Assembly (NCBI GenBank): GCA_037013685.1
Contig: CM072884.1
Location: forward strand, 114,005,730-114,069,729
Reading direction: 5' to 3'
Length of the DNA stretch: 64,000 bases
Origin: Acridotheres tristis
Lineage: Eukaryota; Chordata; Aves; Passeriformes; Sturnidae
Shown: positions 912 to 17,117 of the stretch, piece after piece
Position numbering within the stretch: the first letter of the stretch is position 1
Layout: every line of letters starts with the position of its first letter
Position numbers and translations under genes: made by a program
Notes under the pieces: generated by a model
Databases searched by the model: none
Seen by the model: only the letters and a program-made list of their open reading frames with translations
Told to the model about the DNA's origin: nothing

Positions 912-3900
912 GTGTGCTGCAAGCAGGTTTGATGCTGACCAAAGAGGGGGTGAAGATTTTAAACTTTAAATGCCAATTTGGGGATCCCCAGTGTCAGGTG
1001 AGTGGAACACACTGGAAAATTAAAGCTGCTCCATTCTTTTATCTCTTACTGTTGTAGTTTATTTCTAGGGAAAGATCTGGATGTGAACATTTTAAACAAT
1101 AAGGTAACTTAACATTTTGGCTCATCCTTAAAGGCTTTAAGTTAAAACATTGTTTCTCTGATTTTGTTTTTTTTGATAGAAGCAGAATGGGAGGGGCCTA
1201 AATTCATGTTCCTTCTACATAAGCTCACACGTTGTGTTTCTAAATTTTGGACTGGTGCCAAAAGATGCTGCAAATTAAATGCCCACTCAGCTTTGCCAAA
1301 CCTACTGGCTTGGCACATACAGATTTTATTCCATCACCTGAATTTTCCCTAAGGTGAATTTCAGCAAGCCAGCAAAATAAACATGAACTTCCACCACTGT
1401 GAAAACTTTCTACAGGTAATTCTCCCTCTGCTTAAAAATGATTTTTATGAAGTGATTCAAGCAGCAATTGATGGCAAACTCTGCAGCTGCATGCCAGCCT
1501 GGTCAGAGAACAGAACTGCTGTGTGTGTGGTCATGGCCAGCCCAGGATACCCAGGAGACTCTGACAAAGGCATGGAGGTAACAGGTAACTCTGGCAGCTT
1601 GTTAATTATTTAATTACTTCCTCACAGGGCTCTGGGCAAGGTGGGCATTGAGATATTCTGTGTTTGTGTAGGTATTCAATATTAACTTAGCTATTAGAGA
1701 CAGGTATTCAATATTCATGTAGGTATTCAGTATTCATATAGATATTCTATATACATATATTAGATATAGATATTCAATCTTCATTTGGATATTAGATATA
1801 GATATTCAGTCTTCATATAGATATTATATATAGGTATTCAATATTTATATGGATATATGATATACATGTTCAATATTTGCATAGGTATACATTATCTATA
1901 TATGTTAGATATAGATATTCAATCTTCATATAGATATTTTATATTAATATTAAATCTTCATATAGATATTAGAAATATATATTCAATATCCATATAGATA
2001 TTCAATCTTCATAGAGACATTCAATATTTATTTAGATATCAACACCATTTGAATATTGGATATAGATATTCAATATTCATATAGGTATTCAATATTCACT
2101 CAGATATCAATACCATTTGGATATTGGATATAGATATTCAATATTCATACAGATATTCAATATACATTTAGGTATCAATAGCATTTGGATACTGGATATT
2201 CAATATTCATACAGATATTCAATATTCACTTAGATATCAATACCATTTGGATATTGGATATGGATATTCAGGATTCATACAGGTATTCAATATTCATTTC
2301 CTCTGCTCCAGTGCTCCTGGTTCAGGATCTCATGAAGATATTCAGTGTTTAAAAACAGAGGGAGCTGTTGCAGAACCATTTCCTTCCCACTCAGCTCCTG
2401 CCCTGCCAGTCCCACCCCAGCACCTCAGCTCCTGGCCAGGGCTCCCAAATTTTGGCAGCTCCCAGGGGAGCCTCCATTGCCTGGGGTGCCTTGTCCCTGG
2501 CAGCTTTCTGAGCCCCTGCTTGTCAATCACAAAAACCAGTCAGATCAGTGGAATTCAACCCATTCTTTTATTATCTTCCACATCAGAATTTCTTGGGGTT
2601 TATTGGTTTTTATTCTCTTTTTCACATGCAATCACATATTTTTAGGTGATGCTCACAGAGATGCCCAGGGTTGCACTGGGTGATTGATCCTTGTGTGTCC
2701 TTCCAGCTCAGGATATTCTGTGATTCTCTGATTTTAATGGCTTGACAAACTTTTTATTCTGGAGTATTCCTTAAAACAGAATGCAAAGGGCTTGGATTTC
2801 CATTGCAGCAAGGCCAGGGGGAAGAATCCCTTGAGCTTGCAGCAAGGAGAAAACTGCTTGGTTCTCATTTTCCCAGGTGATGGCAGCAGTTCCTCCTCTT
2901 CCCTTCTCCTTCCCTCAAAACAGGAATCTAAAAAAACTCCAAACCTTGAACAGTTTTCCTTCCCTGTGTCAGACCAGCCCCCTGTGAGTGTCTGTGGAGC
3001 ACGAGTTGCAGATGTTGTAGGGGTTTGTGTGGAGTGGGCAGGATGGAATCGTGGGGGAGTGCAGAGGTGACATCAGCATGGGTGGTTTAATGTCAGGGAG
3101 AGGAGAGAACCTGGCAGGAAATGGCTGTGGATTGTGAATTCCTGCAGGAAAACCCTGCACCAATTATCCACAGTCCCCAAGAGAGCACAGCTATGTCCTG
3201 TGGTGGCTCCTCGATCCCATATTTCTGTTCCTGTGGGATTTCGTCCTTTACATTTGGGGTGCCCCAGATGTGGGCACGTAGGAGAGAGCCCAGAGGAGGC
3301 AGCAGGATGAGCAGAGGGATGGAGCAGCTCTGCTGGGAGGAAAGGCTGGCACAGCTGGGATTGTTCAGCCTGGAGAGGAGAAGCTTTGGGCTGAGCTCAG
3401 GGTGGCCTTGCAGGGCCTGAAGGAGCTGCAGGAACCATGGAGAGAGACAATTGCCAAGGGATGGAGGGACAGCACCCAGGGGATGGAGGGACAGCACCCA
3501 GGGAATGGAGGGACAGCACCCAGGGGATGGAGGGACAGCACCCAGGGAATGGAGGGACAGCACCCAGGGAATGCAGGGACAGCACCCAGGGGATGGAGGG
3601 ACAGCACCCAGGGGATGGAGGGACAGCACCCAGGGGATGGAGGGACAGCACCCAGGGAATGGAGGGACAGCACCCAGGGGATGGAGGGACAGCACCCAGG
3701 GGATGGAGGGACAGCACCCAGGGAATGCAGGGACAGCACCCAGGGGATGCAGGGACAGCACCCAGGGAATGCAGGGACAGCACCCAGGGGATGGAGGGAC
3801 AGCACCCAGGGGATGGAGGGACAGCACCCAGGGAATGGCTTTGAACTGACATAAATAGATTTAGTTTGGGTATTGGGCAGGAGTTGTTCCCTGGCAGGGT

Positions 3901-17100: not shown

Positions 17101-17117
17101 TCTGGGCCGGGCCCTGA
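912..17117 (+). CDS. GART-like paralog, inverted, 5'-partial; exons equivalent to GART 9-22 with all three active sites altered
   Basis: Exons 912-997, 1416-1584, 4942-5173, 5917-6011, 6658-6767, 8759-8957, 9673-9924, 10538-10687, 11663-11869, 12555-12677, 13503-13633, 15049-15190, 15934-16049 and 16812-17117 match GART exons 9-22 one for one. Lengths are identical for exons 9-14 and 18-21 apart from exon 18 (123 versus 132); exons 15, 16, 17 and 18 differ only by multiples of three. Every intron is GT-AG, all phases match, and the joined frame is open for 772 codons including TGA. Exon 14 is 46 of 67 residues identical to GART by hand count; exon 12 is much more diverged. Catalytic residues in GARS, AIRS and transformylase are replaced, and the C-terminus is extended. 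Exons 1-8 should lie before base 1. It is intron-bearing, so not a processed copy. Either a pseudoenzyme gene or an undamaged dead duplicate; expression is unknown. Confidence 0.88.
1670..2310 (+). repeat. AT-rich minisatellite (AGATATTCAATATTCAT-type units)
   Basis: Degenerate tandem array of roughly 12- and 24-bp units in intron 10 of the paralog. Toward its end the units are longer and more regular, with a TATCAATACCATTTGGATAT variant repeated. Confidence 0.85.
3277..4090 (+). mobile_element. CR1 LINE fragment interrupted by a minisatellite
   Basis: The CR1 3' region begins at GAGCAGAGGGATGGAGCAGC and runs to the tail near 4075. An internal array of 22-bp units replaces the segment that is single-copy in normal CR1. 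It lies in intron 10 of the paralog. Confidence 0.85.
3453..3837 (+). repeat. 22-bp minisatellite inside CR1
   Basis: About 17 units of GGATGGAGGGACAGCACCCA plus GG or GA, with GGA/GCA variants, grown from the GATGGAGGGACAGCACACAG segment of CR1. Open frames in several phases on both strands are repeat artefacts. Confidence 0.9.
4205..4860 (+). mobile_element. CR1-derived composite element in paralog intron 10
   Basis: CR1 body (GAGAAAAGGAGGCTCAGGGG onward) followed by about 190 bp of other sequence and then a second copy of the GATGTGGCCCTTGGGGACAG segment. The part 4433-4855 recurs almost unchanged, inverted, at about 43590-44016 in GART intron 2. Confidence 0.8.
5300..5830 (-). mobile_element. 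Probable LTR fragment, antisense
   Basis: On the minus strand a TATA-like CTATAAAAG near 5437-5445 is followed about 125 bp on by AATAAA near 5311-5316, the spacing of a U3-R-U5 LTR. The flanking sequence is unrelated to CR1 or exons. The borders and target-site duplication were not found. No protein-coding remnant is present. Confidence 0.4.
5917..12677 (+). CDS. GART-like paralog: AIRS-like domain and linker (exons 12-18)
   Basis: Exon 12 (95 nt as in GART) is the most diverged, keeping little beyond YK. Exon 13 has SQTKGLGPK where AIRS enzymes have SGTDGVGTK, losing the loop Gly, Asp and Thr. Exon 14 keeps [10 protein letters not shown] and ACGKLD but DYF has become THL. Exon 15 opens GEQVTEV in place of GGETAEM; it retains PPG, DLAGF and GAVERGQ and gains one codon. 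Exons 16-17 keep LLTPGKM, LLPILRSGHVKGF, WKIPEIF and [12 protein letters not shown]. Exon 18 keeps KVKVAVLVSG after a shortened linker. Frame is unbroken throughout. Confidence 0.87.
6240..6300 (+). repeat. AAAT microsatellite
   Basis: Run of AAAT units, directly before a CR1 fragment. Confidence 0.85.
6300..6590 (+). mobile_element. CR1 fragment
   Basis: Sense CR1 of the GAGAAAAGGAGGCTCAGGGG type with the GCAGGAATTTCCCCATGGAA body. Nearly the same sequence occurs at 11348-11525 and, inverted, at 23286-23600, so the subfamily is young or homogenised. Confidence 0.8.
8110..8435 (+). mobile_element. CR1 fragment
   Basis: CR1 3' end in paralog intron 13, with GGAACAGTGG-type body, GGTGTCCCTGCCATGGCAGG and the ATTCCATGATTCTGT tail. 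It holds two units of the 22-bp motif that is expanded at 3453 and 62190. Confidence 0.85.
9465..9640 (+). mobile_element. CR1 3' tail
   Basis: Short CR1 tail ending just before the acceptor of paralog exon 15. Confidence 0.8.
10150..10490 (+). mobile_element. CR1 fragment
   Basis: CR1 3' end in paralog intron 15, ending about 50 bp before exon 16. Confidence 0.8.
11240..11530 (+). mobile_element. Two adjoining CR1 pieces
   Basis: A CR1 tail (11240-11340) directly followed by a piece of the young CR1 subfamily also seen at 6400-6590 and 23286-23470. In paralog intron 16. Confidence 0.75.
12555..17117 (+). CDS. GART-like paralog: GAR transformylase-like domain (exons 18-22) with extended C-terminus
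   Basis: The phosphate loop SGTGTN is SGAGSA here. Exon 20 is well kept ([21 protein letters not shown]). In exon 21 the catalytic NIHPS motif reads NASPS, so the His is Ser. In exon 22 the catalytic VDAG reads PGAG, so the Asp is Gly. LQLVASGAV is intact. GART ends one residue after the Trp of GKIYW; this copy runs on for about 45 residues rich in Gln, Gly and Glu (a short purine-rich repeat) to a TGA at 17115-17117. The exon 19 acceptor (ccctggag) has a weak polypyrimidine tract. Exons 15, 16 and 22 are strikingly GC-rich. Confidence 0.85.
12930..13440 (-). mobile_element. AT-rich insertion, possibly an antisense LTR
   Basis: Sharply AT-rich block in paralog intron 18. Minus strand has AATAAA repeats near 13008-13020, compatible with an LTR polyadenylation region. 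No borders or duplications identified. Confidence 0.3.
13895..14245 (-). mobile_element. CR1 fragment, antisense
   Basis: Antisense CR1 3' region in paralog intron 19. Very similar copies lie at 18735, 25960, 28830 and 48370. Confidence 0.85.
14640..14950 (-). mobile_element. CR1 fragment, antisense (second subfamily)
   Basis: Antisense copy of the subfamily with GGGCAGCTCATCCCAGTGCC, ending 100 bp before paralog exon 20. Confidence 0.75.
15305..15440 (+). repeat. Three tandem units of about 40 bp
   Basis: TGTTGGGATTCTGCTTCC begins each unit; in paralog intron 20. Confidence 0.8.
15668..15737 (+). repeat. Short tandem repeat of about 26 bp
   Basis: Three units containing AAAGGGTGAGCAGTGAAT. 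Confidence 0.75.
16363..16735 (+). repeat. C-rich minisatellite in paralog intron 21
   Basis: Units with CCCTGTGCTCCATGTCCAG and CATCCCTTTCCCAGACCCAT alternate about 6-8 times, followed by a pyrimidine-rich stretch up to the acceptor of the last exon. Open frames across it are repeat artefacts. Confidence 0.9.

Follow-up and report, generated by a model that had tools for sequence, protein, structure and literature searches.

AIRS enzymes are dimeric, and vertebrate GART, a single GARS-AIRS-GART chain that belongs to the purinosome, dimerises through its AIRS domain. Birds dispose of nitrogen as uric acid by way of purine synthesis. Steps 2, 3 and 5 of the ten that lead to inosine monophosphate are attributed to GART in PMC10912719. 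Here we describe a strongly diverged second copy of this gene (hereafter the paralog) in the passerine Acridotheres tristis, where it stands next to GART in a stretch of 64,000 nucleotides (the window; C1:114005730-114069729, C1 being contig CM072884.1 of the 1.04 Gb assembly GCA_037013685.1; negative positions lie upstream of the window). The paralog arose from an old tandem duplication, in inverted orientation, that took in the whole coding region of GART; judging from its sequence, it is probably a selected protein-coding gene for a predicted trifunctional pseudoenzyme, which would be present in the animal as protein.

A number of described systems are suggestive of what such a copy may do. 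Among these are catalytically dead paralogs of trypanosomatid enzymes, one of which reportedly activates deoxyhypusine synthase. Another, the prozyme of S-adenosylmethionine decarboxylase (AdoMetDC), is described in PMC5201418 as activating its partner through heterodimerisation. As portrayed there, prozymes share with the paralog the duplication of a metabolic enzyme, the loss of catalytic residues and the retention of the gene; the paralog differs in being a vertebrate copy of an unrelated enzyme in which three active sites of one multidomain protein were hit together. A second point of comparison is CRUOX, the cysteine-rich urate oxidase of birds and reptiles, which according to PMC10517255 has been kept without inactivating mutations and repurposed. 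In both cases a purine-pathway enzyme gene stays intact in uricotelic vertebrates and its product is enriched in cysteine; as presented in that source, however, CRUOX belongs to purine breakdown and is an orthologue that retains residual activity, whereas the GART paralog is a second copy of an enzyme of purine synthesis in which cysteines rise from 17 to 30.

The closest relative remains vertebrate GART itself (human chains 2qk4, 2v9y and 4zyt), with which the paralog shares the order of its domains and the exon-intron organization that marks the trifunctional enzyme: compared with the neighbouring GART, 15 of 20 internal exons are of equal length, the other five differ by multiples of three, all 20 intron phases agree and 614 of 992 residues are identical. 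It departs from GART in the replacement of three active sites, a 45-residue C-terminal extension and its cysteine and lysine contents. We found no such GART paralog in the open-access literature among the matches listed, going by titles and abstract openings; automatic genome annotations may well carry it under a '-like' name.

Gene structure of the paralog

A tblastn search of the window with human GART (a query afterwards matched to the three PDB chains) yielded two exon sets, one on the minus strand (46900-20445) corresponding to GART and one on the plus strand (911-16988) corresponding to the paralog. Within the window, 12 paralog exons out of 14 gave matches with E values of 5.3e-7 or lower (best 6.9e-25), whereas exon 17 reached an E value of only 0.68 and exon 11 was unmatched, both being positioned by a spliced aligner written for the purpose, which permits frameshifts and stops at a penalty. 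The alignment places 14 exons on the plus strand (912-17117), tail-to-tail with a GART gene of 21 coding exons running from 46900 down to 20439 on the minus strand. The stronger splice sites were picked for the end of exon 16 (11869) and the start of exon 17 (12555).

Examination of 50 kb upstream of the window revealed paralog coding exons 1-7 (C1:113997751-114005405), the first of which opens with the ATG at -7978 (C1:113997751). With the TGA ending at 17117, the whole gene comprises 21 coding exons across 25.1 kb, and its joined frame holds 1,039 codons plus stop with neither internal stops nor frameshifts. All 20 introns are GT-AG. Mean splice-site scores, calculated from site frequencies, were 4.6 for the acceptors and 4.4 for the donors of the paralog, close to the 5.1 and 3.9 of GART.

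These results bear out most of an earlier reading made from the letters of the window (the sequence-only reading), which had proposed 14 inverted exons tail-to-tail with GART, with splice sites and phases kept, and an open frame of 772 codons; the same 14 exons were recovered, and their lengths total 2,318 bases, or 772 codons counting the stop. Its suggestion that further exons, 1-8 in its numbering, be sought upstream led to the seven described above. Its count of ten exons equal in length to those of GART gives way to nine, out of 13 internal exons in the window that can be compared, while its statement that the remainder (four exons) differ by multiples of three stands. The replaced active-site residues, the conversion of exon 1 and the fragment copies elsewhere in the genome, all described below, go beyond that reading.

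Three readings of the gene model were rejected. An artefact of modelling is contradicted by two penalty settings returning the identical 21 exons with no frameshift, a truncated copy of 3' exons by the presence of the upstream exons, and a processed copy by the introns.

Selection on the paralog

Long neutral decay of the paralog is excluded. When the GART coding sequence (955 codons) was allowed to evolve neutrally in 300 runs per value of divergence d, a mean of 17 stops accumulated at d = 0.3 and of 24 at d = 0.53, and no run remained stop-free at either d (0/300); 36-129 frameshifts would be expected on calculation, assuming 0.05-0.1 indels per substitution. The paralog displays no disabling stop, frameshift or broken splice site in its 21 exons and 20 introns, and the absence of such changes over about 991 codons and 20 introns limits any unconstrained phase to at most 0.7-1.8% divergence (95% bound). 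Nor does the paralog show the lack of amino-acid constraint typical of a duplicated pseudogene. Over 944 codons, exon 1 excluded, the paralog and GART differ by a non-synonymous divergence (dN) of 0.302 and a synonymous divergence (dS) of 1.067, giving an omega of 0.283 as an average over both copies and a log-likelihood 87 units above that at omega = 1.

Taking human GART as the outgroup, 478 of 946 sites are unchanged, 87 changes are common to both copies, 212 are found in the paralog only and 57 in GART only, and 112 sites are different in all three. The duplication is therefore younger than the split from mammals, and of the protein changes that can be assigned to one copy, roughly four fifths took place on the paralog. 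If dS is equally shared, the branch omega is near 0.45 for the paralog and near 0.12 for GART. At assumed rates, a dS of 1.07 and the 57:87 split between GART-only and shared changes would place the duplication roughly 90-250 million years ago; we do not rely on this estimate because rates near this chromosome end may be raised.

The residues retained are also suggestive of selection. The paralog keeps 478 (0.69) of the 690 sites that are alike in human and GART. Among them, phenylalanine, tryptophan and cysteine are kept at 47 of 52 sites, as opposed to neutral expectations of 0.50 at d = 0.3 and 0.32 at d = 0.53, and 118 of the 212 paralog changes are conservative, compared with neutral fractions of 0.45 and 0.41, respectively (standard deviation 0.02). 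In the GARS and AIRS domains, the paralog kept 225 of 321 sites at which E. coli agrees with human and GART, and 142 of 205 at which only human and GART agree; deep sites are thus retained no better than shallow ones, and constraint on the paralog therefore no longer tracks catalysis.

Evidence on more recent times comes from partial GART-like copies elsewhere in the genome, detected when the whole genome was searched with GART; the numbers of copies obtained in this way are minimum values. These copies are closer to the paralog than to GART, mostly matching 93-100% of its residues. One of them carries paralog exons 6-9 (C24:2450449-2454742), and pieces with exons 6 or 7 occur both at C1:114.12-114.134 Mb and at another place on C24. 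The fragments containing exons 6-9 or parts of them (C24:2450449-2454742, C24:2440497-2444175, C1:114132519-114133925 and C1:114119187-114120100) adjoin repeat copies that are also found at window -17.5 to -11.1 kb, including a 4.6 kb stretch (-15721..-11118). Fragments and repeats together represent a segmental duplication carrying pieces of the gene.

Between the fragment with exons 6-9 and the paralog there are 6 differences in 468 exon bases and, once a minisatellite is set aside, 54 in 1557 intron bases (Fisher p = 0.012; 0.002 for exons 7-9 alone). Raw intron divergence is 8%, a figure inflated by the minisatellite, and we used the more cautious 3.5% obtained without positions 340-880. 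At all six exon differences GART agrees with the paralog, placing the changes on the fragment side; they sit in five codons, all five of them altering meaning, and the exon-6 acceptor of the fragment reads GG. No exon change thus falls on the paralog side, where 8.1 would be expected given neutral introns and an equal amount of change on the two sides (P = 3e-4). This count of sides uses that fragment only. The pattern fits a dead fragment beside a constrained gene, and we regard it as good support rather than proof. Of the two fragments on C1, one shows 0/214 exon and 17/1160 intron differences (p = 0.09) and the other 0/88 and 12/790, both too weak to be informative; the other C24 fragment has accumulated five substitutions and nine deleted bases in 214 exon positions, four of the substitutions being common to the fragment with exons 6-9. 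The simulation, the omega estimate and the fragment comparison agree with the expectation of the sequence-only reading that a neutral pseudogene of this age would carry stops.

Several observations weigh against the view of the paralog as a selected gene for a pseudoenzyme. Serine, threonine and tyrosine are kept at 45 of 86 sites, no more than the 0.55 expected under neutrality at d = 0.3, and the overall retention of 478/690 would match neutrality at d near 0.18. For the argument from retention to hold, the paralog branch must have diverged by at least about 0.28; four-fold sites, 0.394 of which differ between the copies (n = 317), indicate about 0.28 per side or more once corrected and halved, leaving a margin over neutrality that is real but not large. 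The equal retention of deep and shallow sites also fits relaxed constraint. The test of recent constraint comprises one fragment and four exons, over which the paralog side lacks synonymous changes as well. Of all exons, exon 11, where the AIRS domain starts, has diverged furthest (nucleotide identity 0.537), which may weaken the idea, discussed below, that the paralog dimerises with GART. At the 5' end of the paralog there is no CpG island, and an interspersed repeat resembling a long terminal repeat (LTR), made of two related halves (-8818..-8028), lies directly before the ATG exon; this element might supply a promoter. Finally, the acceptor of exon 18 at 13503 (ctggag|GCTC) is weak, yet AG.

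The weak acceptor, the want of a CpG-island promoter and the scattering of paralog fragments as segmental duplicates would also fit a very recently dead pseudogene, that is, a gene functional for most of its history which then lost its function too recently for stops to have appeared. We consider this unlikely, in view of the narrow bound that the absence of disabling changes sets on any dead phase and of the paralog-side exon changes since the C24 fragment split off, none of which was found where about eight would be expected.

Predicted protein and its possible role

In the predicted protein, Pfam profiles recognise GARS_N, GARS_A, GARS_C, AIRS, AIRS_C and Formyl_trans_N, all above the curated cut-off; the six families stand in order in one chain, as they do in the trifunctional enzyme. 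Scores are lower than those of GART (116 versus 231 bits for the formyltransferase). The catalytic residues of the trifunctional enzyme are not preserved. At the transformylase site, the paralog keeps N106 and G87 (E. coli PurN numbering), while H108 is replaced by serine and D144 by glycine, the roles of N106, H108 and D144 in E. coli PurN being treated in PMC7926923. We compared 14 active-site strings of our own choosing, of which 13 have at least two residues changed relative to GART. One string of 21 residues has become RVVRARAPAARTEVTIA and one of 11 residues LNFKCQFGDPQ, GGETAEM has become GEQVTEV, and TFNCG is altered. We take the GARS and AIRS strings, which are also conserved in the chains compared, to be binding motifs of these domains. 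With its catalytic motifs lost and its fold signature kept (the fold being deduced from the profiles), the paralog has the hallmarks of a pseudoenzyme and is probably devoid of all three enzyme activities.

Alternatively, the paralog may be a still active isoenzyme that tolerates the motif changes and goes on catalysing one or more of the three reactions, perhaps on an altered substrate. In keeping with this, N106 and G87 are preserved, the AIRS string CVNDILAQG is changed by I to L only, deeply conserved histidines (5/6) and arginines (8/10) are mostly kept, and some substitutions of N106, H108 and D144 in the E. coli enzyme are described in PMC7926923 as retaining activity in vivo. Replacements nevertheless affect all three domains, the change of H108 to serine is accompanied by that of D144 to glycine, and only 1 of 7 deeply conserved asparagines and 3 of 10 tyrosines are left, making continued catalysis quite improbable.

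The C-terminal tail of 45 residues is rich in glycine, glutamine and glutamate. Over residues 1-994 the paralog has 30 cysteines, compared with 17 in GART and 22 in the human protein; its lysine content is 3.7% as against 6.5% in GART, and tyrosine 0.7% as against 1.9%. The GC content of the paralog is the higher one at codon position 1 (0.653 versus 0.611) and at position 2 (0.466 versus 0.427).

An intact frame together with lost catalysis suggests that the pseudoenzyme has taken on a new, non-enzymatic job. By analogy with the prozymes, its retained fold, above all that of the AIRS-type middle domain, would let it associate with active GART or with the purinosome; mixed dimers of the dead paralog and GART could then raise or lower GART activity, and the paralog would in this way set the flux of de novo purine synthesis, the route that birds also use for the disposal of nitrogen as uric acid. 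Of the mechanisms that we can envisage, this association with GART or the purinosome is the likeliest, but we put it forward only tentatively, as somewhat less probable than its converse. Regulatory or structural reuse of a GART copy is plausible because birds excrete nitrogen via purine synthesis and because CRUOX has been repurposed in sauropsids. Rather more doubtful is the full proposal that a vertebrate lineage evolved a dead GART partner, sacrificing three active sites, which associates heteromerically with GART and so regulates de novo purine flux, and with it the disposal of nitrogen as urate or the supply of nucleotides to germ cells. A complete GART copy of this kind, its frame conserved but its three active sites damaged, would be a natural probe of the roles of GART beyond catalysis, and would hint that uric acid-excreting animals control purine synthesis at a level so far unrecognised.

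Exchange with GART and surroundings of the locus

The ATG exons of the two genes are 95.9% identical over 170 bp (-7985..-7816 with 46907..46738, inverted), from 7 bp before the ATG to 18 bp into the intron, and exon 1 has a dS of 0.042 compared with 1.07 elsewhere. Exon 1 was recently gene-converted, the two copies having exchanged sequence there long after they parted. This tract raises the prospect that the frame of the paralog has been held open by repeated conversion from GART in place of selection on the copy itself. Such an explanation is very improbable and largely refuted by divergence exon by exon: exons 2-21 are only 54-79% identical to GART in nucleotides, the low divergence of exon 1 at third positions (2/48) is matched by no other exon (next lowest exon 21, 13/57), and inverted blastn matches between the genes (E <= 1e-3) are confined to exons and dispersed repeats. 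Still less probable is that the protein is irrelevant and that an RNA or the tail-to-tail arrangement matters, for example through antisense pairing of overlapping 3' ends; some 3.3 kb separate the two stops, and in this interval polyadenylation-signal hexamers of one strand alternate with those of the other, but selection on amino-acid properties and on the reading frame would be left unexplained.

Features of the window and their positions (window coordinates)
Feature	Position	Strand	Remarks
Paralog coding exon 8	912..997	+	86 bp, equal to GART; spliced alignment
Paralog coding exon 9	1416..1584	+	Spliced alignment
Paralog coding exon 10	4942..5173	+	Spliced alignment
Paralog coding exon 11, start of AIRS domain	5917..6011	+	Most diverged exon, nucleotide identity 0.537
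Paralog coding exon 12	6658..6767	+	10-residue active-site string replaced by SQTKGLGPKL
Paralog coding exon 13	8759..8957	+	Spliced alignment
Paralog coding exon 14	9673..9924	+	252 bp vs 249 bp in GART; GGETAEMP region replaced
Paralog coding exon 15	10538..10687	+	150 bp vs 153 bp in GART; TGGGLLEN replaced
Paralog coding exon 16	11663..11869	+	207 bp vs 204 bp in GART; strong donor CAG|gtgagc
Paralog coding exon 17	12555..12677	+	123 bp vs 132 bp in GART
Paralog coding exon 18	13503..13633	+	Weak acceptor ctggag|GCTC
Paralog coding exon 19	15049..15190	+	Spliced alignment
Paralog coding exon 20	15934..16049	+	Catalytic His replaced by Ser
Paralog last coding exon	16812..17117	+	Gly in place of the catalytic Asp; C-terminal extension of 45 residues, rich in G/Q/E, up to the TGA
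GART, 21 coding exons	46900-46756 ... 20621-20439	-	Active-site strings examined equal to human or nearly so
GART ATG exon with edges, gene-conversion tract	46738..46907	-	95.9% over 170 bp; partner at -7985..-7816, outside the window
SON first coding exon	58176..58235	+	tblastn with 38 SON residues, 95% identity over 20 amino acids

On its other side GART lies head-to-head with SON, as in mammals. Human queries for DNAJC28 and TMEM50B found neither gene within 90 kb upstream of the window, part of which reads N; TMEM50B maps to C1:114292263-114296076, on the SON side and about 222 kb beyond the window edge. Local gene order differs from the mammalian one, and the unexpected location that the sequence-only reading had ascribed to the copy holds as far as it was tested. 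No gene was recognised in the minisatellite-rich stretches upstream of the paralog, where no profile search was run.

The locus contains a variety of other repeats. Relatives of the LTR-like repeat occur at 12978-13400 and elsewhere. Between the two genes, a 549 bp repeat (17165-17713) has copies near C1:114.136 Mb (97.8% identity) and on C24 (94.9%), and a segment at -2993..-2458 matches the same places. Inverted matches link introns of the two genes at 4347-4877 with 44101-43572 (95%, 531 bp) and at 11345-11525 with 23469-23289 (99%, 181 bp); these are probably young dispersed repeats because the introns involved do not correspond between the genes. Long minisatellite arrays (377-848, 3458-3838, 21879-22894 and 54336-55290) are found in introns of both genes and in the interval between the GART ATG exon and SON.

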